Shown: in pieces, positions 6,468 through 34,263 of the stretch | How positions within the stretch are numbered: position 1 is the first letter of the stretch | Layout of the letters: each line of letters opens with the position of its first letter | DNA from: Atopobiaceae bacterium | Lineage (GTDB): Bacteria; Actinomycetota; Coriobacteriia; Coriobacteriales; Atopobiaceae | Reading direction: 5' to 3' | DNA: 64,000 nucleotides | Assembly (NCBI GenBank): GCA_017533825.1 | Contig: JAFWIE010000048.1 | Coordinates: 1 to 64,000, forward strand | Program-made: the position numbers and the translations under genes | The notes under the pieces: model-generated | The model's input: the letters and a program-made list of their open reading frames with translations, nothing else | The model's database searches: none | What the model was told of the DNA's origin: nothing

Positions 6468-7505
6468 TCAGTCCTGAATCTCGTTCCAACGCTTCATCAT
6501 GTCGGCCATCTTGTTGCAGTACCCTGGGTCAACGCGACGAGGGCGAAGCCTCGTAATCCAATCGCTCTTTCTACAATCGTACACATACCGTAGGGCGTTT
6601 TGAACAATCGAGCCCGCAATCAACTCGGTGGCGTTGGGCTCCGAGGCCAGGCGAGAAGAAGCAAACGAGACTCCGCCTGCATGGGCAAACAGAAGATGGT
6701 GAGGGGTCAGGGGCATGAAGAGGTGGACATCGGGGTCCCCGACGCTTCCATCAAGAGTCGGGCGGCCGCCCGGTCTCATGCATAGCCTCACGAACGGGTT
6801 GTCACATGTTGGGAGGACGACTCCGTCGGGCATCTCGACGACCGACCAATTGTATCCGCGCATCCGCCGCCCCACCTCGCCATTGAGAATCCGACCAATA
6901 CCTGCAAGATAGTTCTTTCTCCCAACCGGCATGGTGATTTTGAGCTCGCTCGTCTCTTCGATGACACCAACATCGAAGGCGAACTGCGGGAACGGGGCAC
7001 TGTCCGGCTGACTGGCCGTCTTGTCCTGGGCGTTGCTGGCCGTCAGCAGTCCCGCCTCATATTCGGATTCGAGGCGGTCAACTACCTCCGTGGTCGCGGA
7101 TGGGAAGACGTTGGCCATCAATGCGCAGGATTTCATGTACCACAGAGGGGTCCGAACCATCTGCAGGATGGCAAAGTCCACCAGTGCCGACATGTCATTC
7201 GAACCAAGGGTCTCGCCATCCCTGACCTTCCTCAGGGGTTCGCCCGCCTTCCACTCGTACTCGTCTCCGAACAGCTTCTCGATCGAGTCGTCAATCGAGT
7301 CGTCATCGTTGGCCTGCGTGTAGAAGTCCCTCCAGTATGCGAGTCCCCCGACGCCCTTAGACTCCCACACCTTTTGGCGCTCGCTCCACGCAATCGTGTC
7401 GTAGGTCCAGACCGTGTTGCCATTGTTCGACCACTGTCTGAGGTACATCTGGGGGACGTAGTGGTTGTTCCGTTTTTTCTCCGTGTCTTCTGCCATGTCG
7501 GTCAC
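6468..7505 (-). CDS. DUF4238 domain protein in an overlapping pair with AbiH
   Basis: The N-terminus has the DUF4238 signature NNHYVPQMYLRQWS, followed by a strand reading TVWTYD, and the length (about 345 aa) fits the family. The family has no proven biochemical role but is frequently seen among phage-defence and accessory genes. The likely GTG start at 7505 gives a GTGA overlap with the AbiH stop, with AGAGGG upstream; an ATG at 7496 is an alternative. Such overlap normally means translational coupling, so the two proteins are probably made together. I infer a shared defence function. Confidence 0.75.
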   Translation of the reverse strand: MTDMAEDTEKKRNNHYVPQMYLRQWSNNGNTVWTYDTIAWSERQKVWESKGVGGLAYWRDFYTQANDDDSIDDSIEKLFGDEYEWKAGEPLRKVRDGETLGSNDMSALVDFAILQMVRTPLWYMKSCALMANVFPSATTEVVDRLESEYEAGLLTASNAQDKTASQPDSAPFPQFAFDVGVIEETSELKITMPVGRKNYLAGIGRILNGEVGRRMRGYNWSVVEMPDGVVLPTCDNPFVRLCMRPGGRPTLDGSVGDPDVHLFMPLTPHHLLFAHAGGVSFASSRLASEPNATELIAGSIVQNALRYVYDCRKSDWITRLRPRRVDPGYCNKMADMMKRWNEIQD

Positions 7506-9758: not shown

Positions 9759-11225
9759 CTAAAGCAAGTCTCGAATCTGGTCCAGCATGTAGTCACTGTT
9801 GAGCCAAAACGCCTGCCGGGTCATCCAGCGCCCGTCGGGCAGGGGCTCGGCGTCTCGCTCAACGTTCCCAATCTCCATGCGCCCGAACCGGTACGCCGCG
9901 CGTGCGGCGCGGGGGCGCACGTGGGCGACGAGGCGGTCCGATATCGCGGGGAAGTCGTTGGAGTAGGTGACCTTGCCCGTGCGGGAGACCCTCTTCGTGA
10001 GCTGCACGCCGCGTCGGACGGCGTCCCTCGTCCTTAGCCAGCACTCCCGCACCGGGCCGTCGAGCGTGTCCTCGTCCATGCCCCAGAGCCTGCAGCCGCG
10101 CAGCACCGCGTCGCCGGAGCCGTCCTTCTGGAACACGACGAGCAGGTAGCGCATGTCGGTGAGGAGGTCCCGGAGGGCCGAGTCCTCCCAGTCGTCCTCG
10201 GCAGCGAGCGTCAGGAAGTCGATGTTGAGGATCGGGCTGCTCTCCACGAGGCGCCTCCCGTCAGGCTCGGGTCGCAGCGTGCGGACGCGGATGCCTGCCT
10301 TCTCGAACTCGGCCGCGCGGTCGCCCCGTATGCCGAGCAGGCGGTAGGCGATGGTCGTCCACTGGGCCTTGTTGCCGGTGTACTCCAGTCCCAGCATGTC
10401 GCAGAGCTCGCGGTCCGTCCTGCCCACGTGGCGGTTGATGGTGGACGTGACGTAGTCCGCGAGGGTGCGCCTCTCCAGCTCGCGTGGGTCCCGGATCACG
10501 CTCTCCGCCTCCGGTGCGCCCATCGCGTAGTGGTGCAGCACGTAGTCCATGTAGGAGCGCTTGAGGGAGAACGCGCGTGCGCGGGCTTGCCTTCCTGGCG
10601 CGTACAACACCTGGTCGCGCATGCTCTTGGCGCGGCTGGCTCCCTTCGTGCAGGCGCCGAGGTAGGTGGTGAGCGACTCGCTGAGCTCGTCGGCCCTTCC
10701 CTCGCGCACAAGGTTGGCTATGAGCTCGTAGTCCGTCTCCATGACGCGCAGGTCGGCCTCGGGCGGCGTGAACATGAGCGTGTACAGGATCTTTTGGTCG
10801 TAGGGGTCCTTGCCGCGCTCGCGCAGGTACCAGACGAGAAGCATCCGCCCGCACTTGTGCCACAGGTGCGACTCGTAGAGGCTGTCCGCCACGAGCTCGT
10901 CGTAGGCGATCATGGTGAGCACAAGCCGCTCGCCCGCCGAGAGCCTGCCGCTCTTGAGCCTGTCTACACAGGTCGCCTTGAGCTCCACGCCGGCCTCGGC
11001 GAAGTCGGGCTCGCGGTCTGAGTTCGCGCGGTAGCCGAAGAACCTCTCCTCGAGGAGGTTGCCCATCCCGCCCTTGTAGCGGCGGCTGTTGTACTCGCGC
11101 TCCACGCCATCAGGGGCGATGCCGAGGTCGAGCACCTCGCGGAACGTCATCCCCTCGAGCTGGCTGGCACGCCGCCAGATGGCATCCTCCGAGTCGTACT
11201 CGACGTTAACTTGACTCTCGTTCAT
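9759..11225 (-). CDS. Sau3AI/MutH-type restriction endonuclease
   Basis: This 488-aa protein is almost exactly the length of Sau3AI. It has the MutH-fold signature: KGGMGNLLEERFFGY near residues 51-65, then EPDF with Asp74 and GVELKAT with Glu81 and Lys83, which form the catalytic Asp-Glu-x-Lys set. A second, divergent domain follows, as in Sau3AI, where two MutH-like domains act together. Sau3AI relatives cut GATC and related sites, so GATC is the working prediction. The ATG at 11225 has GGGAGG upstream; the longer frame to 11387 is not needed. The likely modification partner is the C5 methyltransferase at 4813. Confidence 0.88.
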   Translation of the reverse strand: MNESQVNVEYDSEDAIWRRASQLEGMTFREVLDLGIAPDGVEREYNSRRYKGGMGNLLEERFFGYRANSDREPDFAEAGVELKATCVDRLKSGRLSAGERLVLTMIAYDELVADSLYESHLWHKCGRMLLVWYLRERGKDPYDQKILYTLMFTPPEADLRVMETDYELIANLVREGRADELSESLTTYLGACTKGASRAKSMRDQVLYAPGRQARARAFSLKRSYMDYVLHHYAMGAPEAESVIRDPRELERRTLADYVTSTINRHVGRTDRELCDMLGLEYTGNKAQWTTIAYRLLGIRGDRAAEFEKAGIRVRTLRPEPDGRRLVESSPILNIDFLTLAAEDDWEDSALRDLLTDMRYLLVVFQKDGSGDAVLRGCRLWGMDEDTLDGPVRECWLRTRDAVRRGVQLTKRVSRTGKVTYSNDFPAISDRLVAHVRPRAARAAYRFGRMEIGNVERDAEPLPDGRWMTRQAFWLNSDYMLDQIRDLL

Positions 11226-11466
11226 CGTGCCTCCCGTTGCTTGAGCATATCGTGTCGCAGAGCAGGCTCCCCGCACATCAACAAATGTATCGTAACTGAG
11301 AATAGGAATGTGATAGTGAGACGCCAAGCGGTCAGATGGGTGATTGCCTCCTCGGGGTGCTCTGTACCACGAGTACACGCATGACACAGGGCCGCGGCGG
11401 GGCGAACCGCATGTTCTAATGGAACGAAGCGAGGTCCTTTGATGACGACATCCGAGTGCCGCTCAC

Positions 11467-13993: not shown

Positions 13994-14860
13994 ATGGACG
14001 GCGCGACGGGTCGCACGGAGGCGTGGATGAGGGCGGACGCGATGGCCGCCGTCAGGCTGCTGTCGACGCTCAGGGGCGCGGAGGCGGCCGTGGCCGGATG
14101 GATGCTGGCGAGCATGGACACCCGGACCAACAGGGTGGCCGGTACCCAGGCCGAGATCTCGTCCGCCGACGGCTTCTTCTCACTGCACGCAAGGGGCGGG
14201 GCGCCCGCGCCGTCGACGGTCACGCGCGCCCTCAGGGTCCTGGGGGGCAAGCCCGACGGCGAGCGGCGCCTGCGGCTCCCGTTCGTGGTCATGGAGCGCC
14301 CGGGCCTTTACATGGTCAACCCCGCCTACGCGTTCGTCGGCAGGCAGAGGGCGGGCGCCGAGCTGTCGCGCAGCTTCGAGAGGCTGCGCTCGGCGGCGGG
14401 CGTGGGCGCCTCCTACAAGTTCCGGGTCGGGAAGGGCGGCTGGGTCAAGACGGGGCGCATGCAGCTCGCGGCCACGCTCGCGACGCTCAGGGGCGCCGAG
14501 GCCCAGGTCGCCGCGTACCTGCTCGCCTCGACCGACGCGCGCACCAACACGATCCGCGCCACGCAGGCGATGGCGGCGGCAGGAGAGGTGGACCGCGCGG
14601 GACTCGCGGCGCGCCTGGGGACGCTGCCCACTCCCGGCACCACCGTCACGAAGGCCGCCATGCGGCTGCTGGCGGGTGGCGAGGCGAGGGACGGCAGGAG
14701 GCTGGACACCCCGTTCTGCGTGATGGTCGGCTACGGGCGGTACATGCTCAACCCGGCCTGCTTCTTCGTCGGCGGAGACGACAAGGGGGCCGAGCTCAGG
14801 CGAAGGTTCAGGCGCCTCGACATCGAACGCAACGGCGGGCGTGGCCCGAGCGTTGCCTAG
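13994..14860 (+). CDS. Protein with two tandem RepL-like domains
   Basis: The 288-aa protein consists of two similar halves. The first, about residues 18-130, reads LRGAEAAVAGWMLASMDTRTN ... PSTVTRALRVL ... MERPGLYMVNPAYAFVG; the second, about 150-278, reads LRGAEAQVAAYLLASTDARTN ... TTVTKAAMRLL ... VGYGRYMLNPACFFVG. A winged-helix-like block ending in Y-M-x-N-P-x-x-F-x-G is the pattern of RepL plasmid replication initiators, which normally have a single such unit. GGGAGGGG precedes the ATG. The gene converges on the helicase with a 4-base overlap. Replication initiation at the repeat field near 16.3 kb is a reasonable inference; transcriptional control is the main alternative. Confidence 0.6.
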   Translation: MDGATGRTEAWMRADAMAAVRLLSTLRGAEAAVAGWMLASMDTRTNRVAGTQAEISSADGFFSLHARGGAPAPSTVTRALRVLGGKPDGERRLRLPFVVMERPGLYMVNPAYAFVGRQRAGAELSRSFERLRSAAGVGASYKFRVGKGGWVKTGRMQLAATLATLRGAEAQVAAYLLASTDARTNTIRATQAMAAAGEVDRAGLAARLGTLPTPGTTVTKAAMRLLAGGEARDGRRLDTPFCVMVGYGRYMLNPACFFVGGDDKGAELRRRFRRLDIERNGGRGPSVA

Positions 14861-16044
14861 GCGCCGAAGGAGAGGGCGCGGGTCTGCCCCTTGGACCTCG
14901 TCAGCGCGACGTAGGCGGCCCTCGCCTCCGCAAGGGAGTCGCGTCCTGCGAGGAACAGGCAGTCGAGGAACCAGTCGGTGGTCTTGGGGGCGATGTACAC
15001 CGAGTCGTACTGGCGCCCCTTGGACGCGTGCACGGTTATGACCGTGATGCCCCGCCCCGCAGGCCCCACCTCGTCCGGGCCCTCCTCGTCGGAGTACGGT
15101 CCATGCGTGACCACCCGGCACGGCACGTCGTCGCCGCCCCTGTAGGACACCATGAGGTACACGCCGATCATGCCGGCGACGTCGACGGCCTCCCTGTTGG
15201 TGCGCACGAGAACGCCCACGCTGTACGGGCCAGGGTGCTCGGCAAGGTCGTCCGTTACGTCCCACGGGGCGGCGCACGCCCTCTCCACCATGTCCTCGAG
15301 GGTGGAGGAAGTCCGCAGCCCGGACATCCTCCTGTCCGACGCGAGTATCGACTCGCGCATCGAGGCCAGGTCGTCCGAGAACCACGCAGGCCTGCTCCCG
15401 CCCGACCGGTGCTCTCCGGCGAGCGCCAGCGCCTCGAAGCCGGAGACCTCCTCGGAGGCCCTGAACCCATCCGAGTCCATCTCGCCCGCCTCGCCGTCGA
15501 CCTGGTAGTCGTAGAGCGCCTGGCACGGGTCCCCGAGCAGCGTCACGCCGCAGGTTGCGGGAAGGGAGCGAATGAGGGCGAGCACGAGGTCGGCGCGCAC
15601 GCCCACGAGGTCCTGCACCTCGTCGACCACGAGGTGCCTCACGCCCGCGATGACCTCGGGGCGCGAGCCGACGAGAGCCGTGGCCGCCTCGATGCGGTCG
15701 GTGTAGTCCATCTCGTCGAGGACGTCGGCGCCGTACCCGCCGTCGTCGCGCAGCAGCGCGGTGGCCCAGCTGTCGAAGGTCCTCACCATGCGGGCCGTGT
15801 CCTCCTCGGACACGCCTTCGCAGTCGCCGCGTATCCTGCCGGCGACCTCGGTGACTGCTGCGCGGGTGAAGCTCATCACGAGCATCTCCGATGGCCTGAT
15901 GCCGGAGGCCACGAGGCGCGCGACGCGCTTCACGAGCGTGAAGGTCTTGCCAGACCCGGGTCCGGCGGTGACGAGGACCCGCTCCTCCGGGCCGCGCATG
16001 ATCACGTCCGCCTGCGAGTCGTCTGGGTCAAAGCCCATCTCCAC
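14857..16044 (-). CDS. UvrD/Rep-like superfamily 1 DNA helicase, short form
   Basis: An ATP-driven DNA-unwinding enzyme. Walker A is GPGSGKTF (about residues 28-35), motif Ia is MSFTRAAV, motif II is VVDEVQDL with the catalytic Asp-Glu, motif III is LLGDPCQALYDYQ, motif V is ITVHASKGRQYDSVY, and motif VI is AAYVALTRSK. At 395 aa it is far shorter than UvrD or PcrA (about 700 aa), lacking much of the 1B/2B insertions. Such short helicases are common on mobile elements, where they assist rolling-circle or theta replication. The upstream repeat field at 16277-16452 and the convergent RepL-like gene suggest one replication module. Confidence 0.85.
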   Translation of the reverse strand: MEMGFDPDDSQADVIMRGPEERVLVTAGPGSGKTFTLVKRVARLVASGIRPSEMLVMSFTRAAVTEVAGRIRGDCEGVSEEDTARMVRTFDSWATALLRDDGGYGADVLDEMDYTDRIEAATALVGSRPEVIAGVRHLVVDEVQDLVGVRADLVLALIRSLPATCGVTLLGDPCQALYDYQVDGEAGEMDSDGFRASEEVSGFEALALAGEHRSGGSRPAWFSDDLASMRESILASDRRMSGLRTSSTLEDMVERACAAPWDVTDDLAEHPGPYSVGVLVRTNREAVDVAGMIGVYLMVSYRGGDDVPCRVVTHGPYSDEEGPDEVGPAGRGITVITVHASKGRQYDSVYIAPKTTDWFLDCLFLAGRDSLAEARAAYVALTRSKGQTRALSFGA

Positions 16045-16276
16045 GCTCCTCCCCCCGTGGCCGCCAACACCGTCACGCCAATCATAGCAGCGCGCGGACG
16101 ACGACGTGGGCCGCCACCGCAGACGCAGAGCCGGACGAGATCGTCATCCCTCGGCCACGCGGCATCGACGCGCGCTGCACGCCGGGTCGACGTCATCCCC
16201 TTGACTTCCCTGCCATGCAGTCCGGTTGGAGACGCCGAGCGCCAAGGACCTGGCGACAGCCTCCCCTAGCACCACC

Positions 16277-16452
16277 TGTTACGGTGTTACGGTGTTACGA
16301 CACCGCCGCCACGTCCCATATATATATTTATTTCATCTCCCTCCTAATTGGGAAATAGGTATAACACCGTAACAGGGCGAGGCCTTTGGCTCGTCTAGCA
16401 GGGTGTTCGCCGTGTTACGGCGACACGCGCTCGTTACGGCAGGGCGTAACAC
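16277..16452. repeat. Iteron-like field of TGTTACGG repeats with AT-rich core
   Basis: Three head-to-tail 8-mers TGTTACGG, TGTTACGG, TGTTACGA occupy 16277-16300. Inverted copies appear at 16361-16374 (TAACACCGTAACA). Further direct copies are at 16413-16420 and, as CGTTACGG, at 16432-16439, with an inverted CGTAACA near 16445. Between the groups, at about 16318-16360, is a TATATATATTTATTT stretch in a very GC-rich setting. Repeats plus an AT-rich opening region are the layout of a plasmid-type origin; an operator array is the alternative. Confidence 0.6.
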
Positions 16453-16453
16453 G

Positions 16454-16684
16454 TTATAGGTCCAAGCCGTAGGAGCGCTCGTCGTGCCTGGTGGCCGAGG
16501 CTCCTTGGTAGGGGAAGAGCAGACCGAAGCCGACCGCGTCGGACTCGTGGGGTACGGGCTGCCTGCCCGTGCCGGCGGCGCCCGCTGACCGCGCCATGGG
16601 TGCGCGCATGGTGGGGCTGAGCCCGTTCCTCCTGCGCGACATTATCGCAATCCGCGCGAGCCTGCGCGAGCGAGGCGCGCTCAC
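16454..16684 (-). CDS. Small basic protein coupled to the mobilization gene upstream
   Basis: The GTG at 16684 overlaps the stop of the preceding gene in a GTGA tetranucleotide, the usual signature of translational coupling. The 76-aa product is rich in arginine and serine in its first half (MSAPRSRRLARIAIMSRRR) and has no recognised domain. Its position in the divergent transfer operon suggests a DNA-binding mobilization accessory protein, but that is inference only. Confidence 0.45.
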   Translation of the reverse strand: MSAPRSRRLARIAIMSRRRNGLSPTMRAPMARSAGAAGTGRQPVPHESDAVGFGLLFPYQGASATRHDERSYGLDL

Positions 16685-17064
16685 GACCCGTCACCAACTG
16701 CCTGGGCACCCGGCACGGCGCCCTCTTCGCTGCCCTCGCCCTTGCCGGCGATGCGCTCGCGGTGCGCCCGCTGCCACATGCGGGTCCTCGCTGCCGCCTC
16801 CTCGACGGGCAGCGTGGGCGCCACGCACGTCGCGAACGCCTCGCCGTTCCTGCCGATCACGTGCTCGAGCCTGTCCAGGTCCACGGACCTCCAGCCACCT
16901 TTGAACATCTCCAGGACCAGCCCGCCGATCGCATACCTCACGGCCGTCTCCCCCTTCCGATCGGCCTCGGACTCGCGTGCCATTACCTCGCGCCGCCTCT
17001 CGCGCAGCATCGCTATCTGCGCCTCGATGCTCTGCGCCTGCTCCTCGAAGCTTTTCTTTCCCAT
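16681..17064 (-). CDS. Probable mobilization accessory protein (coiled-coil)
   Basis: The 127-aa protein starts MGKKSFEEQAQSIEAQIAML and carries a heptad-like coiled coil to about residue 40, then a GETAVRYAIGGLVLEMF block. This resembles the small TraC/TraD/MobC-type accessory proteins with a K-x-R...GxLxE core that sit opposite MobQ relaxases. GGAGG precedes the ATG at 17064. It is transcribed divergently from the relaxase across an operator-like palindrome. It probably helps assemble the relaxosome at oriT, though the family match is loose. Confidence 0.5.
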   Translation of the reverse strand: MGKKSFEEQAQSIEAQIAMLRERRREVMARESEADRKGETAVRYAIGGLVLEMFKGGWRSVDLDRLEHVIGRNGEAFATCVAPTLPVEEAAARTRMWQRAHRERIAGKGEGSEEGAVPGAQAVGDGS

Positions 17065-17107
17065 CGTTGCCTCCAATATCCAATTCCGTGCATAAAACCT
17101 TTGTCAA

Positions 17108-17204: not shown

Positions 17205-17441
17205 ATGAAGGACGACAGGACAAAGAGCACAGAACAAGTGCGCACTTATACCCCGAGATGCCCGCGGCACTCGGAGCGCGCCCTGCGGGGCCAAGGGCAC
17301 TCCGCGAGGGAGCACCGCGACCGCGGTCCACCATCTACGCTGCGCGGCGCCACGTGCGTGGCGCCTTGCCAGTCACGCCGCCCGAGGCGGCTTGGGCCCG
17401 CGCGCCTGCGGGCACGCGGTGGCGGGCGAGGCGGGAGGTGA
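17205..17441 (+). CDS. Possible 78-aa protein upstream of the relaxase
   Basis: An ATG at 17205 follows AGGAAGGGAAAGG, a good ribosome binding site, and the frame closes seven bases before the relaxase start. The peptide (MKDDRTKSTEQVRTYTPRC, then arginine-rich) has no recognised domain, and its second half looks like translated GC-rich non-coding DNA. The stretch also contains the nic-like sequence, so it may instead be oriT leader DNA. Coding status is uncertain. Confidence 0.3.
   Translation: MKDDRTKSTEQVRTYTPRCPRHSERALRGQGHSAREHRDRGPPSTLRGATCVAPCQSRRPRRLGPARLRARGGGRGGR
17235..17254 (+). other. Candidate oriT nic region
   Basis: AAGTGCGCACTTA on the plus strand resembles the TAAGTGCGCCCTTA core I recall for oriT sites of MobQ-type plasmids. 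It lies about 200 bp upstream of a MobQ-type relaxase. I see no clear adjoining inverted repeat of the classic kind, so this is a candidate only. Confidence 0.4.
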
Positions 17442-17447
17442 ACCAGC

Positions 17448-18587
17448 GTGGCAATCTACCACTTCCACGGCAAGGTCATCTCCCGCTCGTCCGGGCGCAC
17501 GTCCGTGGCGGCGGCCGCCTACATCAGCGGCACCAGGCTCACGTGCGAGCGGGACGGCCGCGTGCACGACTACTCGCACCGCACCGACGTTGTGCACAGC
17601 GAGATAGCCCTGCCCGAGGGCGCCCCGGACCGCTGGCTCGACCGCTCGACCCTGTGGAACGAGGTCGAGGCTACCGAGCGCGGCTGCAAGGCGCAGCTCT
17701 GCCGCAGCTTCGACGTCGCGCTGCCACGCGAGCTCACGAGGGCCGAGCAGCTTGGGTTGGCGCGTGCCTACGCCAAGTCCTTCGCCGAAGAGGGCATGGT
17801 CACGGACTGGGCCGTCCACGACAAGGGCGACGGTAATCGGCAGCACGACAAGGGCGACGGCAATCCGCATTTGCACCTGCAGATGCCGATGCGAGCCTGT
17901 GACAGGGATGGCTTCCTGCCCAAGTGCAAGTCCTGCTACGTGGTCCGAAACGCCAGCGGCGAGGAGAGGGAGGCCACCGCGGCCGAGGTCAAGGAGCTTG
18001 GCGGTCAGTGGGAGAAGGTCTTCACGTACCGCGGCAACAGGCGCCTCACGAAGACGGAGGCCGAGGCTGCGGACCTGCACCCCACTAGGGACCGCAAGTC
18101 GTCCAGCCCCGTCAAGCGCAAGATTCGCACGACCGACTGGGACTCCCCGGAGACGTACGAGTCTTGGCGCAAGCGGTGGGAGGACATGGCGAACGAGGCC
18201 CTTGCGGCCCACGGCAGTGACGAAAGGATAGACAGGCGCAGCTATGCCGAGCGAGGAATCGACCTGCTGCCCACGGTGCACCTCGGCCCCGACGTGGCCG
18301 CAATAGAGCGGGCCGCCAGGGAGGAGGCCAAGGCCTGCGGAGAGGAGTATGCGCCCGTGACCGAGCGGGCCAGGGAGAACGAAAGAAGACGGAAGATCAA
18401 CGAACTGATATTGGAGTTGGTGAGGATCATGACGGAGATGATCAGGACGAGGCTCGAGCACGCCAGAACGCTCGAGGGCAAGCGCCGTGCGCAACGTGCG
18501 ACGGCACGGAGAAGGCCAAGAAGGAAGGTCCCTTACGCACCGCAACGCGGCCGAAAGGTCAGCCCCCGAGGCGGGTACGGGAGATAA
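17448..18587 (+). CDS. mobA: MobQ-type (MobA/MobL) relaxase
   Basis: It would nick oriT and stay attached to the 5' end for conjugative transfer. The family opening is MAIYHFHGKVISRSSGRTSVAAAAYISG with the likely catalytic Tyr near residue 25. The metal-binding triad is in NPHLHLQMP (about residues 139-147). Just before it the peptide HDKGDGN occurs twice, from a 27-bp tandem duplication. The protein is 379 aa with a basic C-terminus and no primase or helicase extension. The GTG start has GGGAGGTGA upstream. With no coupling protein or secretion genes in the window, the element is probably mobilized by a helper. Confidence 0.88.
   Translation: MAIYHFHGKVISRSSGRTSVAAAAYISGTRLTCERDGRVHDYSHRTDVVHSEIALPEGAPDRWLDRSTLWNEVEATERGCKAQLCRSFDVALPRELTRAEQLGLARAYAKSFAEEGMVTDWAVHDKGDGNRQHDKGDGNPHLHLQMPMRACDRDGFLPKCKSCYVVRNASGEEREATAAEVKELGGQWEKVFTYRGNRRLTKTEAEAADLHPTRDRKSSSPVKRKIRTTDWDSPETYESWRKRWEDMANEALAAHGSDERIDRRSYAERGIDLLPTVHLGPDVAAIERAAREEAKACGEEYAPVTERARENERRRKINELILELVRIMTEMIRTRLEHARTLEGKRRAQRATARRRPRRKVPYAPQRGRKVSPRGGYGR
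17817..17870 (+). repeat. 27-bp tandem duplication inside the relaxase gene
   Basis: Units 17817-17843 and 17844-17870 start with the same 21 bases (one difference), encoding HDKGDGN twice, followed by RQ in the first and PH in the second. The reading frame is kept. It sits directly before the histidine triad of the relaxase. Confidence 0.85.
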
Positions 18588-20819: not shown

Positions 20820-23591
20820 CTACTCCTCGTAACGGGCGAGTTCCTCCCACCATTCGTCCGACACCAAGATGTTGCCGCCGCGGTCGGGCGCCGGGAGCTC
20901 AGAGACCGGTCTCACCCCGAGGCTGACCCTCTCCACCCTGTGGTTCTCGCGGCGATCGCCGGAGTTGGACACGGATACCGATGTCATTGTCTGCCGTATT
21001 CCAATGACCTCGCAGTAGGCCACACGCTTAGCGCGCTCAGCCTCGTACATCTCGGCGATGGCGAAGGCGCCGTACTGCACCGTACGGACCCTTTCCATCA
21101 CACCGCCTTCAGACTCCTCATAGCGCTCGGCACGCGTGGTGATGCAAGCAATGCCCCTGCACCTCGTCGTCACCTCGTCGTTGAATCGATTGATGGCGAC
21201 CGCCTTGAGCTGGGATCGTCTGCACCATGCGCAGTAGTGGTCGTAGACGGTCTGGCGGCGCTGCATGTGCAGGTCGCCCTCCGTGAGACCGACGTGGTCC
21301 ATCCAGGCAAGTACCGACGAGTTCTCGAGGGTAATCTTCCGGAGCTCAGCCTCGGACGCGTAGTTCGGCGTGAAACGGAACTTATCTTGGGCAAGCATCC
21401 TCTGCCCCTCCTCGATGACCAATCGTATGAGGTAGGCCATGGCCTCCGGGCGTCCCATCTTCTCGACTATATTGGGGTCGGCGTCTTGGGAGTAATCGCC
21501 AGTCGAGGTCCTGAAACTGTGGGTGAACGGGATCACAAAGAGCCTGCGCTCGGCGGCCTTGTCGATGCCCCCCTCCACACGTGGGAAGCTGTTGCCAATG
21601 ATCACCACCTGGCAGTACGGTCGGAACGTGAAGCCGTTGAGGTTCTTCACGTCGGCCTTAATCAAGTCGTTGCCGACGGTCTTCTTCCATGTCGAGGCCT
21701 TGCCGCCCGTCAGGTACTCGCTCGAGATTTCTGAGCAGAAGTTCGCTGTCTTGCCAGCCATGTCGCCGACTTCGAAACGGTTGTCCATTCTGTCCAGCCC
21801 GAGGAACGCCGCGTTTCCAGTCCCTATGAGCTCCGTGGCAACGTCGATGAACTTGGACTTGCCGTTGCCGCCATCGCCGATCAGCACCGCGGCCTGCTCG
21901 TGGTGGGTGTATCGCGTCAGGCACGTGAAGAGGACCTGGAGCAGGTTGGCCCTAACGTCCTCATGGCCATCGGCGAGGACGTCCAGGAAGGTGTCAACGT
22001 AGTCTACAGGCGCAGCATTCAGGTCGAGCGGGTGCGGAATCGGGTTCGGCACGCGGTCGCGCCAAGAGTACTCGCCATGAGGCCTCACTTCTCCGGTGGA
22101 GCAGTCAAAAATGCAGTTCTCGAAGCACACGAGCCCTCGTGCGGGCATGTCGAAGCGTCGAGTGACCTCGAGCTGGGCAAGCACCTTCTTGACGACGCTG
22201 CTGTTCGACTCCGAGGAGCCTCCCTTACGAGCCAACTCGACGAAATAGCGGATCCACGCCGGCCCAAAGCGGTAGCGCTCACCGTCCCAGATGGCCGGGG
22301 CGCCGTCCATCGTGCAAGCGTGCATCCCGTAGAGGAGAGCCTCGACCATCTTGTCCTGGTGGTAGACGGTCATATTCTTCTTTTCGTCGTACGTGAAGAC
22401 CCCGAAGGCCTCGATGACATCAGCGACATATCGCTCCATGCCGAGCTCCTCCTCGGAGGGACCGTCCACGGCCTCTTCCTCGGCCAAGTGATTGTCTCGG
22501 CTGCCGCCCTTCTCCTTCGACAGCGCCCACGTAATAATCTGCCAGAGCTCGACCTCACCAATGGGCTCCTCGCACACCCTCTCGTTGAAGGCGTGGACGA
22601 GGCTGGCAATCCTATCGTCGTCATAGCCTTTCGCCTGCAGGTGCGCCGAATACCTCACTATGGCGTCATGGCGCTCACCGCGGGGGACGAAGAGAGGCAT
22701 CGAGTAGGGCAGCCATTCTCCTGCGGCCTGAGCACCTTGGCCGGCATCCTCCTTGCCCCTGCCCTTGTCGGAGAAGACGAGGTCAAGGAGCGCCTCGACC
22801 TCTTCGTCCGCCGCGGCGATCAGAGACGGGTCGAACTTGCCGCCAGCCCACTGGTACTCGCCGGCGCTGCCGTCCGCCTTGGCGATGCGCGTGGGTGCCA
22901 CGGTGATTCCGCCGCCGGTGCCACGCACGTCGATGCGCAGGTTACCGTTGGCGACGCAACCGCGCGGCTTGTCGCTCACGTAGTAGAGGTGTCGGCCGCC
23001 TCTTGGGGAGGTCGCCTCGAGCGTGCTCGGGAGCGTGTGTGGGGTGCCGTCGATCTTTCCGGAGCACCAGTCGTCGATGGACTTGAGCCCGTCAGGACCG
23101 CCCTCCACCTTGGCTGCGTCGACGTCGATCACGATCAGGTGCTTGCCGGCATGGACGCCAGCAGTGACGAGCCCCGTCCTGAGCGCCACGCCCAGGTTCG
23201 TGCAGTGCGGCCACCATCCGTCGATCGCCGCCTGGTCTCTCGTGGCGTCCTTGTAGCCGTGGGCCGTCGCGGGCGCCTTGGCCTCGTGGGTGACGCCGTC
23301 TTGCTGCCATACCGGATAGACGTCGAAGCCGGCGTTGGCGTACTCGGTGGCGGCAGCGTGCGCCGCGCTCTCCGTAGCGGCGTCAACCTGCAGGTCCTCG
23401 AAGCTGATGTCCGCCGTCTGCGCCGTCGCCTCGTCGGCTGGCTTGGCGCGGCCATCATGGGCAGGCGTCTGCGGCTTCGCCCCGATCGCCACCTCGGCTG
23501 CAAGCTGCTTGCCGACGTCGGCTATTATGGACTCTGGTACGGTGTCTCCAAGATTGGAGACTGGTGGTGGTTCGATGCTCTTGTGTAGCAT
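20820..23591 (-). CDS. Prim-Pol primase fused to a D5-type SF3 helicase
   Basis: This 923-aa replication protein combines DNA priming and unwinding. The N-terminal part (about residues 60-270) is a bifunctional primase/polymerase domain, with NAGFDVYPVWQ, the metal-binding IVIDVDA near residue 155, and RGGRHLYYVSD. The C-terminal half is a D5/P4-type superfamily 3 helicase with Walker A GDGGNGKS near residue 575, a QVVIIGNSFPRV sensor-like segment and GIDKAAERRLFVIPF. Such fusions drive replication of P4-like satellites and integrative elements. The start is the ATG at 23591 (MLHKSIEPPPVS) with AGGAAAGG upstream. It is the last large gene before the tRNA. Confidence 0.88.
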   Translation of the reverse strand: MLHKSIEPPPVSNLGDTVPESIIADVGKQLAAEVAIGAKPQTPAHDGRAKPADEATAQTADISFEDLQVDAATESAAHAAATEYANAGFDVYPVWQQDGVTHEAKAPATAHGYKDATRDQAAIDGWWPHCTNLGVALRTGLVTAGVHAGKHLIVIDVDAAKVEGGPDGLKSIDDWCSGKIDGTPHTLPSTLEATSPRGGRHLYYVSDKPRGCVANGNLRIDVRGTGGGITVAPTRIAKADGSAGEYQWAGGKFDPSLIAAADEEVEALLDLVFSDKGRGKEDAGQGAQAAGEWLPYSMPLFVPRGERHDAIVRYSAHLQAKGYDDDRIASLVHAFNERVCEEPIGEVELWQIITWALSKEKGGSRDNHLAEEEAVDGPSEEELGMERYVADVIEAFGVFTYDEKKNMTVYHQDKMVEALLYGMHACTMDGAPAIWDGERYRFGPAWIRYFVELARKGGSSESNSSVVKKVLAQLEVTRRFDMPARGLVCFENCIFDCSTGEVRPHGEYSWRDRVPNPIPHPLDLNAAPVDYVDTFLDVLADGHEDVRANLLQVLFTCLTRYTHHEQAAVLIGDGGNGKSKFIDVATELIGTGNAAFLGLDRMDNRFEVGDMAGKTANFCSEISSEYLTGGKASTWKKTVGNDLIKADVKNLNGFTFRPYCQVVIIGNSFPRVEGGIDKAAERRLFVIPFTHSFRTSTGDYSQDADPNIVEKMGRPEAMAYLIRLVIEEGQRMLAQDKFRFTPNYASEAELRKITLENSSVLAWMDHVGLTEGDLHMQRRQTVYDHYCAWCRRSQLKAVAINRFNDEVTTRCRGIACITTRAERYEESEGGVMERVRTVQYGAFAIAEMYEAERAKRVAYCEVIGIRQTMTSVSVSNSGDRRENHRVERVSLGVRPVSELPAPDRGGNILVSDEWWEELARYEE

Positions 23592-24034
23592 GATCGCACC
23601 TTGCCTTTCCTGCAGGTGCGACGGCCTAAAAAAGGGAAAGCCGGCACACCTGCATTTCACAGATGTACCGGCTCGAGCACGACCGTTGGTTTCTATGTTA
23701 CGCCGACGCACTCGCTCGCATTACCAGGATGTCGACGCGACGCCCGTTGGCGCCATTATTGGTTATTCCCCAACCAGGCGGGGTCTATACCCCATGTTTC
23801 AAAAATAATTTCTAAGCTGAAATTAGGAATCTTTCTTTCCGCGTTGCCAAGCCGACTGTTCGCTGCACACGCTGTAAAGGTAATCGTCGAACTGGATCTA
23901 CTACAAGAAGCCCACATGCGAATAGAGTAATTCGTTGCCACCATAGGGGCTGCACGTCGCTTGCAAGTTGCACGTTAGCGTTCTCTGGCCCAAAACGTAA
24001 AACGACGCCGTAAAACACCACTTATTCACAATAT
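23592..24034. other. AT-richer gap between primase and tRNA, likely element end
   Basis: No solid gene is visible. A minus-strand frame at 23756-23944 ends in GNAERKIPNFSLEIIFETWG, which resembles the end of an XRE helix-turn-helix domain, but its first half does not, so it may be a remnant. A hairpin with AGCCGG/CCGGCT arms lies at about 23638-23674 in the primase leader, and AATTTC/GAAATT arms at 23810-23827 look operator-like. The element boundary is probably in or next to this stretch. Confidence 0.4.
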
Positions 24035-32544: not shown

Positions 32545-34263
32545 TTGCAAAAGAATCGCACCTCAAACGAAGATGCTCCCAGACGAGGGGCCCACTTGAA
32601 GGCAAACCGCCCGCAGCATCCGACCAACGACGGTACTCCGTCGGTCGATGCAATCGAAGGCGCTTCATCCTCAACACTCAGCGGGGACGCGCGCGCCGAC
32701 ATTCCGCGCATTGACGCACCCGCAGCCGATGGTGAGGGCTTTTGGAATCCCGCCGACGAGTTCCGCCGTCAGGAGCAGGCTGACTTACTAGAGTCTCTTT
32801 CGACCGACATCGCACAGCCCGAGCACGATTTGCCCAACCGCGATCTGCCTGAGCGCGAGCAACCCGAGCGCAACCTGCACGATGTGCCGGCCGTTCCTCC
32901 GGCGCGTGCCAAGCGCGCGCGGAGCAAGCACAAGGACGAGGCACCCAGCGACATCCAACGATACTTCGACGTTAACCGCTATCGTCGTTCGTCTCAGCGT
33001 CGCAGCCGCATGACCACGGCAAAGTTCGTCGTGGGTGCCGTCGTCGCGCTCATCATGGCGATTGGCGTCGCCGTCGCCCTCTATGTGGCCGACATCGACG
33101 AGCGCCTTACGCACGACATCACGGCCGGCTTGCGCGACCAGCTCGAGCACTCGGAGCCTGGCGACCCGTTCTACCTGCTCCTCTTGGGCATCGACAAGGA
33201 CCAAGGCCGCGTGGCGGACACCGAGAACTACGGCGACAACGACCACGCCTACCGCTCCGACTCCATCATGCTGTGCCGCATCGACCCCAAGGCCGTAAAG
33301 GTCACCATGGTCTCGATTCACCGCGACACGCTCATCAACATGGACGAGCACGGCCAGCAGAAGATCAATGCCGCCTACGCCTTCGGCGGGGCTGAGTACG
33401 CGACGAAGGTCGTCTCGGAGTTTGCCGGGGTGCCCATCTCGCACTACGCAGAGGTCGACCTGGACCGCTTCATCGCCATCGTGGACGTCGTCGGCGGCAT
33501 CGAGGTGGACCTGCCCGTCCCCGTCTACGACCCCGAGTACACCGGCCTCAATTTGCCTGCCGGCAAGCAGAAGCTCAACGGACTCGAGGCTGCGCTGCTG
33601 TGCCGCTGTCGCCACGGATATGACGAATACGGCGACGGCGACCTGTTCCGCGCCGCCAACCAACGCATGGTCTTCTCGCAGATAATCAAGACCGTCATGC
33701 GCAGCGACCCCGCCACCATTATCAACACCATCACGCAGATGGCCGACAGCGTGACCACCGACCTTACGCTCGCGGCGATTCTCGACCTTGCCGGCCAGAT
33801 GCAGACGATTGATGTCGAGAAGGACATCATGACGGGCATGGAGCCCACCGAGGGCGTAGAGCTCGGCGATGGCTGGTACGAGGTTTGCATCACCTCCGCA
33901 TGGAACAAGATGATGAATCGCGTCAACAAGGGCCTGCCGCCCTACGAAGAAGGCATGTATGACTCCACGGCTGGCATCGCCGGTGGCGTCGGCGAAGCTG
34001 GGGCGGCGGCTGCGGCCGCGGCTGCGGCTAATGGCTACGCCACGCCGAGCGAATCGGCCACAAAGAGCAACGCCGACGACACCGAGGATGGTGCCATCGC
34101 CCAGGACAACACCCAAGAGTACGTGCCACTACCGGAGCCCGAACCTGAACCTGAGCCCGAACCCGAGCCGGTCTACTACGAGGAGGAGCCCGTCTACGAG
34201 GAGCCGGTCTACTACGAGGAGCCCGTGTACTACGAGGAACCGGTCTACTACGAGGAGTACTAG
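32545..34263 (+). CDS. LytR-CpsA-Psr (LCP) family cell-wall glycopolymer ligase
   Basis: LCP enzymes attach teichoic acid-like or capsular polymers to peptidoglycan outside the membrane. About 155 N-terminal residues are cytoplasmic, polar and proline-rich. A single anchor follows (FVVGAVVALIMAIGVAVALYV). The LCP domain then shows YLLLLGIDKD, YRSDSIMLCRIDP, TMVSIHRDTLINM, KINAAYAFGG, DVVGGIEVDLP and RCRHGYDEYGDGDLFRAANQ, with the expected Asp/Arg active-site residues. The C-terminus is unusual: an alanine run, then alternating PE, then several EEPVYY repeats. The TTG start has GGGAGG upstream. Confidence 0.9.
   Translation: MQKNRTSNEDAPRRGAHLKANRPQHPTNDGTPSVDAIEGASSSTLSGDARADIPRIDAPAADGEGFWNPADEFRRQEQADLLESLSTDIAQPEHDLPNRDLPEREQPERNLHDVPAVPPARAKRARSKHKDEAPSDIQRYFDVNRYRRSSQRRSRMTTAKFVVGAVVALIMAIGVAVALYVADIDERLTHDITAGLRDQLEHSEPGDPFYLLLLGIDKDQGRVADTENYGDNDHAYRSDSIMLCRIDPKAVKVTMVSIHRDTLINMDEHGQQKINAAYAFGGAEYATKVVSEFAGVPISHYAEVDLDRFIAIVDVVGGIEVDLPVPVYDPEYTGLNLPAGKQKLNGLEAALLCRCRHGYDEYGDGDLFRAANQRMVFSQIIKTVMRSDPATIINTITQMADSVTTDLTLAAILDLAGQMQTIDVEKDIMTGMEPTEGVELGDGWYEVCITSAWNKMMNRVNKGLPPYEEGMYDSTAGIAGGVGEAGAAAAAAAAANGYATPSESATKSNADDTEDGAIAQDNTQEYVPLPEPEPEPEPEPEPVYYEEEPVYEEPVYYEEPVYYEEPVYYEEY

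Follow-up and report, generated by a model that had tools for sequence, protein, structure and literature searches.

The window analysed here, the whole stretch of 64,000 nucleotides at the start of an Atopobiaceae contig, comes from a genome in a genus of ruminant-gut Coriobacteriia and contains a mobilizable element of this actinobacterium. Within the element, a field of short repeats (the cassette) is bordered on the left by genes for a UvrD-type helicase and a RepL-like protein and on the right by a MobA/MobL relaxase gene, as the initial annotation had described. The left arm of the cassette (16276-16299, forward strand) consists of three 8-bp units arranged head-to-tail, CTGTTACG GTGTTACG GTGTTACG; the word TGTTACGG is exact at 16277 and 16285, and the third unit is TGTTACGA. 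The core between the arms (16300-16361, no strand) holds an AT-rich tract, TATATATATTTATTT, at 16319-16333, a candidate melting region that occupies the same position in sibling cassettes. The right arm (16362-16376, reverse strand) contains two inverted units, TAACACCGTAACAGG, whose 15 nt are complementary to 16275-16289 at 100%. A linker (16377-16411, no strand) leads to a tail with one direct unit, GTGTTACGG (16412-16420, forward strand), a partial direct unit, GTTACGG (16433-16439, forward strand), and an inverted unit, CGTAACACG (16445-16453, reverse strand). The tail units were delimited from the sequence and an alignment of eight cassettes, in which the left arm is conserved and the columns of the right arm are invariant.

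The repeats are genuine and exceed chance expectation by a wide margin. All four exact copies of TGTTACGG in the window lie inside it, where 0.96 would be expected across the entire 64 kb, and six of the eight copies of TGTTACG fall within its 175 bp, leaving two for the rest of the 64 kb. A generic 7-mer density test was uninformative, since CGCGCGC dominates the shuffles, and we therefore used a word-specific cluster scan, in which TGTTACG in the field reached a -log10 Poisson value of 14.9; when the whole window was shuffled 200 times with dinucleotides preserved, the maximum was 8.6. (The second-best cluster in the window, at 11.2, is a low-complexity coding repeat, EPVYYEE, at 34177-34262.) GC content is 34% at 16312-16361 versus 67% for 16001-17000. 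The head-to-tail 8-mers with further direct and inverted copies, and the AT-rich core in GC-rich DNA, on which the initial annotation based its proposal of a candidate origin, are thus both borne out.

When the two-unit pattern was searched across 140 genomes of the family, clustered direct and inverted copies were found in the same-genus genomes G063, G065, G070, G071 (several) and G075; the records of these sibling loci are metagenome-assembled genomes (MAGs) of Atopobiaceae and Coriobacteriaceae. A cassette of about 175 bp is conserved in five sibling genomes, with the order two to three direct 8-mers, a core of 57-72 bp, an inverted pair, a linker of about 40 bp, and a direct-direct-inverted tail. 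In the eight-row alignment the arms are well conserved, and the core is variable and often T-rich. A hairpin in RNA or single-stranded DNA was rejected, as the arm units vary independently (e.g., TGTTAGGG/TGTTACGG in G065; by eye, same alignment). The motif ACCTGC/GCAGGT is present in 12 of 22 cassettes versus 2.6 expected, regardless of iteron word, and may mark a site for priming or for a host factor; examples in the linker or flank lie at L046 ~4083, L142 ~2595 and L017 3630-4000. It is found in the linker of about half of the related cassettes and is degenerate in that of the window.

The surroundings of the sibling copies bear on whether the field might instead be an operator or promoter region for UvrD or the mobilization genes. 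The window cassette does lie 5' of UvrD (start 16044), but the siblings mostly have it between convergent gene ends (L046, L053, L051, L050), and we rejected this reading on account of those convergent neighbours; of the explanations weighed here, it is the least probable. To the right of the window cassette, a small gene in the MobC position (16681-17076, reverse strand; weak TraC-like match, E=0.015) is divergent from the MobL gene (17448-18587, forward strand; Pfam MobA_MobL, 5.8e-70), whose tblastn matches include MobQ relaxases. The cassette stands directly 3' of the MobC-position gene both in the window and in a G071 element (L051); a UvrD-MobC relative in G066 (L012) has the MobC-position layout of the window, but lacks the cassette. 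The order primase ... MobL-MobC-cassette is likewise common to the window and the G071 element, which encodes a DUF5906 primase and yielded no RepL or UvrD match.

Beyond the family, the same word was found with the same layout in unrelated phages. A two-arm pattern matched Polaromonas CF318 and its IMG/VR prophage counterpart, where GTTAC is again the word and the cassette starts 15 bp past the stop codon of a gene for a DUF5906 helicase. Among ten IMG/VR contigs with both arms (eight from a further scan, and L117 and L121 from an earlier one), nine have a primase/superfamily 3 (SF3) helicase gene directly 5' of the cassette by Pfam or PHROGs: DUF5906 in L115 and L121, Prim-Pol+DUF5906 in L117, Prim-Pol+DUF5906+D5_N in L137, a phrog_35358 primase in L132, L134 and L136, a primase C-terminus in L135, and a VapE C-terminus in L133. 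L134 and L136 appear to be nearly the same phage and so do not count as independent. The distance from primase stop to iterons is 15-168 bp, for which random placement gives P ~5e-12 (seven loci, not all independent). In the tenth contig, L138, a primase-like gene (DUF3854; weak PHROGs primase match) has the cassette on its 5' side, at a distance of 127 bp, and a terminase gene flanks the cassette on the other. In Paenibacillus phage LincolnB, GTAAC units flank an AT-rich tract right after the annotated DNA primase gene. Thus, copies recur in siblings and across phyla, the point on which the initial annotation had staked its proposal, and the conserved partner of such cassettes, as judged by comparison, is a predicted primase/SF3 helicase. 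The partner helicases are distant, since the window primase found no match in the two Polaromonas records. A GTTAC repeat alone is not diagnostic, because several other contigs have such repeats but no recognised primase gene in the sequence covered (L116, L120, L122, L125 and L131, which have very similar flanks, and L119 and L129). A BLAST search of the cassette against plasmids gave chance matches only.

The recurrent primase partner also counts against an attachment or recombination site, in which arm-type repeats around a core-type inverted repeat would be bound by a tyrosine recombinase. Such a site would fit with the arms and their short core, an imperfect inverted repeat, with half cassettes whose break lies close to that core, and with copies near borders between element and chromosome. 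No integrase gene, however, was seen travelling with the cassette; the G071 element has a serine-recombinase gene at its far end, sibling homology does not resume at the core but about 200 bp past the cassette, and empty-site searches placed no junction cleanly at the core. Lacking both integrase co-conservation and core junctions, a tyrosine-recombinase phage attachment site was rejected, and we consider a recombination role very unlikely.

The window element encodes a protein of the recurrent partner class, a 963-aa Prim-Pol + PriCT_1 + DUF5906 (SF3-type) primase-helicase (20820-23711, reverse strand), identified with Pfam (Prim-Pol 1e-24, DUF5906 1.8e-14, PriCT_1 1.4e-6) and PHROGs (DNA primase, 6.8e-52). 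A profile built from the C-terminal half of this protein and four phage counterparts, which share a C-terminal segment in the alignment, matches the solved primase-helicases 7ola and 7om0 (E=2.3e-26), the former of which we take to be the SaPI5 primase-helicase; the same profile weakly matches 7pds, 'similar to D. nodosus vapE'. Coriobacterial relatives of the window gene usually hold, in their 3' flank, a cassette of the same layout with a different word. Words within this family are TGGCACC (in the window's own genome, C138), ATGCTGTAAT, GTGTGCCC, CGGATACG, AAAGCGTAGA and AAGAGACACA, with the L021 flank a weaker case and no clear cassette in the 3' flank of the G071 primase itself; a DUF5906 search within the genus added three clear cassettes, GTTACCC (G074), CGGCAAC (G062) and GGGCCA (G069). 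In the window's own genome a second Prim-Pol/DUF5906 gene is present twice, 47 kb apart (G000:C138 3814-5844 and 50857-52887; L024 and L025), both times with the same iterons. The G074 cassette matches, in word and layout, the paralogous cassettes that stand beside TGTTACGG cassettes in G071. There, L050 (G071:C2) has tandem pairs of one GTTACCC and one TGTTACGG cassette at 6655-7031 and 14415-14805, flanking a stretch of about 7 kb with two large, repeat-rich, surface-protein-like open reading frames.

Taken together, these comparisons make it probable that the field is an iteron origin, of the kind found in P4 and in the Staphylococcus aureus pathogenicity islands (SaPIs) and other phage-inducible chromosomal islands (PICIs), that would serve the element once excised; its likely initiator is the Prim-Pol/DUF5906 protein. 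The initiator helicase would use its C-terminal domain to bind the 8-bp units that flank the AT-rich core, load as hexamers, melt the core, and prime replication of the circular element. We infer these steps, and the pairing of protein and cassette in the window element, from work on P4, SaPI and the staphylococcal cassette chromosome mec (SCCmec); the layout, its conservation, and its co-location with primase genes elsewhere are observed directly.

Several observations weigh against this assignment. The window cassette is 4.4 kb from the primase gene, with mobilization genes between them, and no iterons were found in the 3' flank of the window primase. Sibling copies in G063, G065, G075:C28 and G071:C2 have no primase gene beside them; a DUF5906 search gave zero matches in G063, G065 and G070, although these are MAGs, whose incompleteness limits the absence; and a different word stands beside G075's own DUF5906 primase. 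Finally, modelling of the window primase's C-terminal half gave a structure too low in confidence (predicted local distance difference test score, pLDDT, of 40) to reveal a DNA-binding domain.

Because several sibling cassettes lack a nearby primase and some of the genomes lack a DUF5906 match, the main rival is that the field is inherited as an origin of this kind yet survives today as an orphan or relic, its initiator having been lost or replaced while the window primase reads another site. Orphan cassettes beside ArdC-like or DUF4313 genes, with no primase, fit this account, as do the half cassette of L057 (core and right arm only), the contig-end copy in L048 without a left arm, and the 4.4-kb separation and missing DUF5906 matches described above. 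However, the window copy is complete with well-conserved arms, its synteny is that of the G071 element, and MAG incompleteness weakens the argument from absence; we therefore consider a relic unlikely, though a more serious contender than any other alternative. Less likely still, orphan cassettes could be plug-in origins used in trans rather than relics, small islands and mobilizable elements keeping a TGTTACGG cassette without a matching initiator; such orphans would replicate on the arrival in the cell of a phage or element that encodes a primase-helicase specific for GTTAC.

The initial annotation had implied that the RepL-like gene is the partner of its candidate origin. The origin itself is well supported by comparison with siblings and phages; the choice of partner is not, and the initiator is most likely the Prim-Pol/DUF5906 protein, by a pairing that we infer, rather than the RepL-like one. 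Proximity favours RepL, the gene being 1.4 kb from the cassette, and there is a weak Pfam RepL match (E=0.0024, under the curated cut-off). Yet RepL-like and UvrD pairs in G066 (45-51% identity) and G132 (RepL halves 30-42%, UvrD 45%) have no TGTTACG at their loci, and the sibling element with cassette and primase has no RepL. The cassette is thus not co-conserved with the RepL-like gene, as would be expected of a RepL origin of Firmicute plasmids, and this partner was rejected; we consider an origin driven by the RepL-like protein very unlikely. A related-loci search with the UvrD and RepL-like proteins returned nothing. At G132 (G132:C12; L013 10431-10590), about seven direct repeats of ~22 bp (GACTACAAATGGTACGAACTATT type) lie upstream of a tandem RepL-like gene and are a candidate separate iteron origin. 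Because that gene has its own repeats and the RepL/UvrD relatives have no 8-mer, the window element may hold two replication modules. The window RepL-like protein (13994-14860) shows an apparent internal duplication into two similar halves, and two G132 matches align to overlapping parts of it.

Comparison with characterized systems places the cassette close to, but not squarely within, known families. The rep-ori plan of SaPIs and other PICIs, Gram-positive and Gram-negative alike, has two iteron sets around an AT-rich region, 3' of rep (PMC6092414; PMC7581432), and in both SaPI Rep and SCCmec Cch2 iteron recognition lies with a C-terminal domain (PMC7581432). Like these islands, the window element encodes a primase/D5-SF3 helicase (20820-23711), here a putative initiator; an origin directly 3' of the initiator gene, normal in that family (PMC6092414; PMC7581432), is seen in the phages and relatives with the same layout, but not in the window, where it lies 4.4 kb away, beside MobC/MobL in a mobilizable element, and uses the word TGTTACGG. 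We therefore read the window cassette as working like the PICI/SaPI family, yet do not file it as a standard member. In the annotated P4 record, the crr has 8-bp TGTTCACC units in the order ++ core -- + just 3' of alpha, and ori lies 2.1 kb past the 5' end of alpha. The window shares with P4 8-bp units starting TGTT and the direct/inverted order around a short AT-rich core, and P4 ori, too, can stand apart from the primase gene. The two differ in word (TGTTCACC versus TGTTACGG); the Prim-Pol/DUF5906 domain set was assigned by scanning the window protein only. P4 also has an ori plus two crr repeats, whereas a single cassette was found in the window element; no second TGTTACG cluster was found in the 64-kb window, in which the element appears to run off the contig start. 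SCCmec Cch2, with its pattern-2 putative origin, is similar in that a D5-type helicase uses a C-terminal domain to bind short iterons situated downstream of the helicase gene (PMC7581432), but those are AAGTG iterons of 5 nt, only three in number, in a different element. Salmonella genomic island 1 (SGI1) is likewise mobilizable and, once excised, uses an iteron origin of its own (rep-oriV; PMC7433901), but its RepA_C-type initiator, 17-bp iterons and DnaA box differ in initiator class and layout.

Elsewhere in the window, a AAGTGCGCACTTATACCCCGAG...GCGCGCCCTGCGGGG site at 17238-17292, between the divergent MobC-like and MobL genes and also present in G066 (L012 14470-14530), is likely an origin of transfer (oriT) of the MobQ kind. 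A MutH-type endonuclease gene (9759-11387; Pfam 5e-26) and a PcfJ-like gene (56-1108) mark an apparent defence region. The element genes examined included no identifiable packaging gene of a phage satellite. The element appears to run off the contig start, leaving its left end, integrase and any second cassette out of view.

These comparisons provide a concrete candidate origin for an element family of uncultured ruminant-gut Coriobacteriia and suggest that integrated mobilizable elements of these bacteria replicate; replication after excision would aid both the copy number and the transfer of such an element. One word, GTTAC every 8 bp, in one layout accompanies primase-helicases of Actinomycetota, Betaproteobacteria and Paenibacillus phages, and the many other words among relatives of the window primase open the P4/PICI initiator-iteron specificity code to comparative and biochemical dissection.
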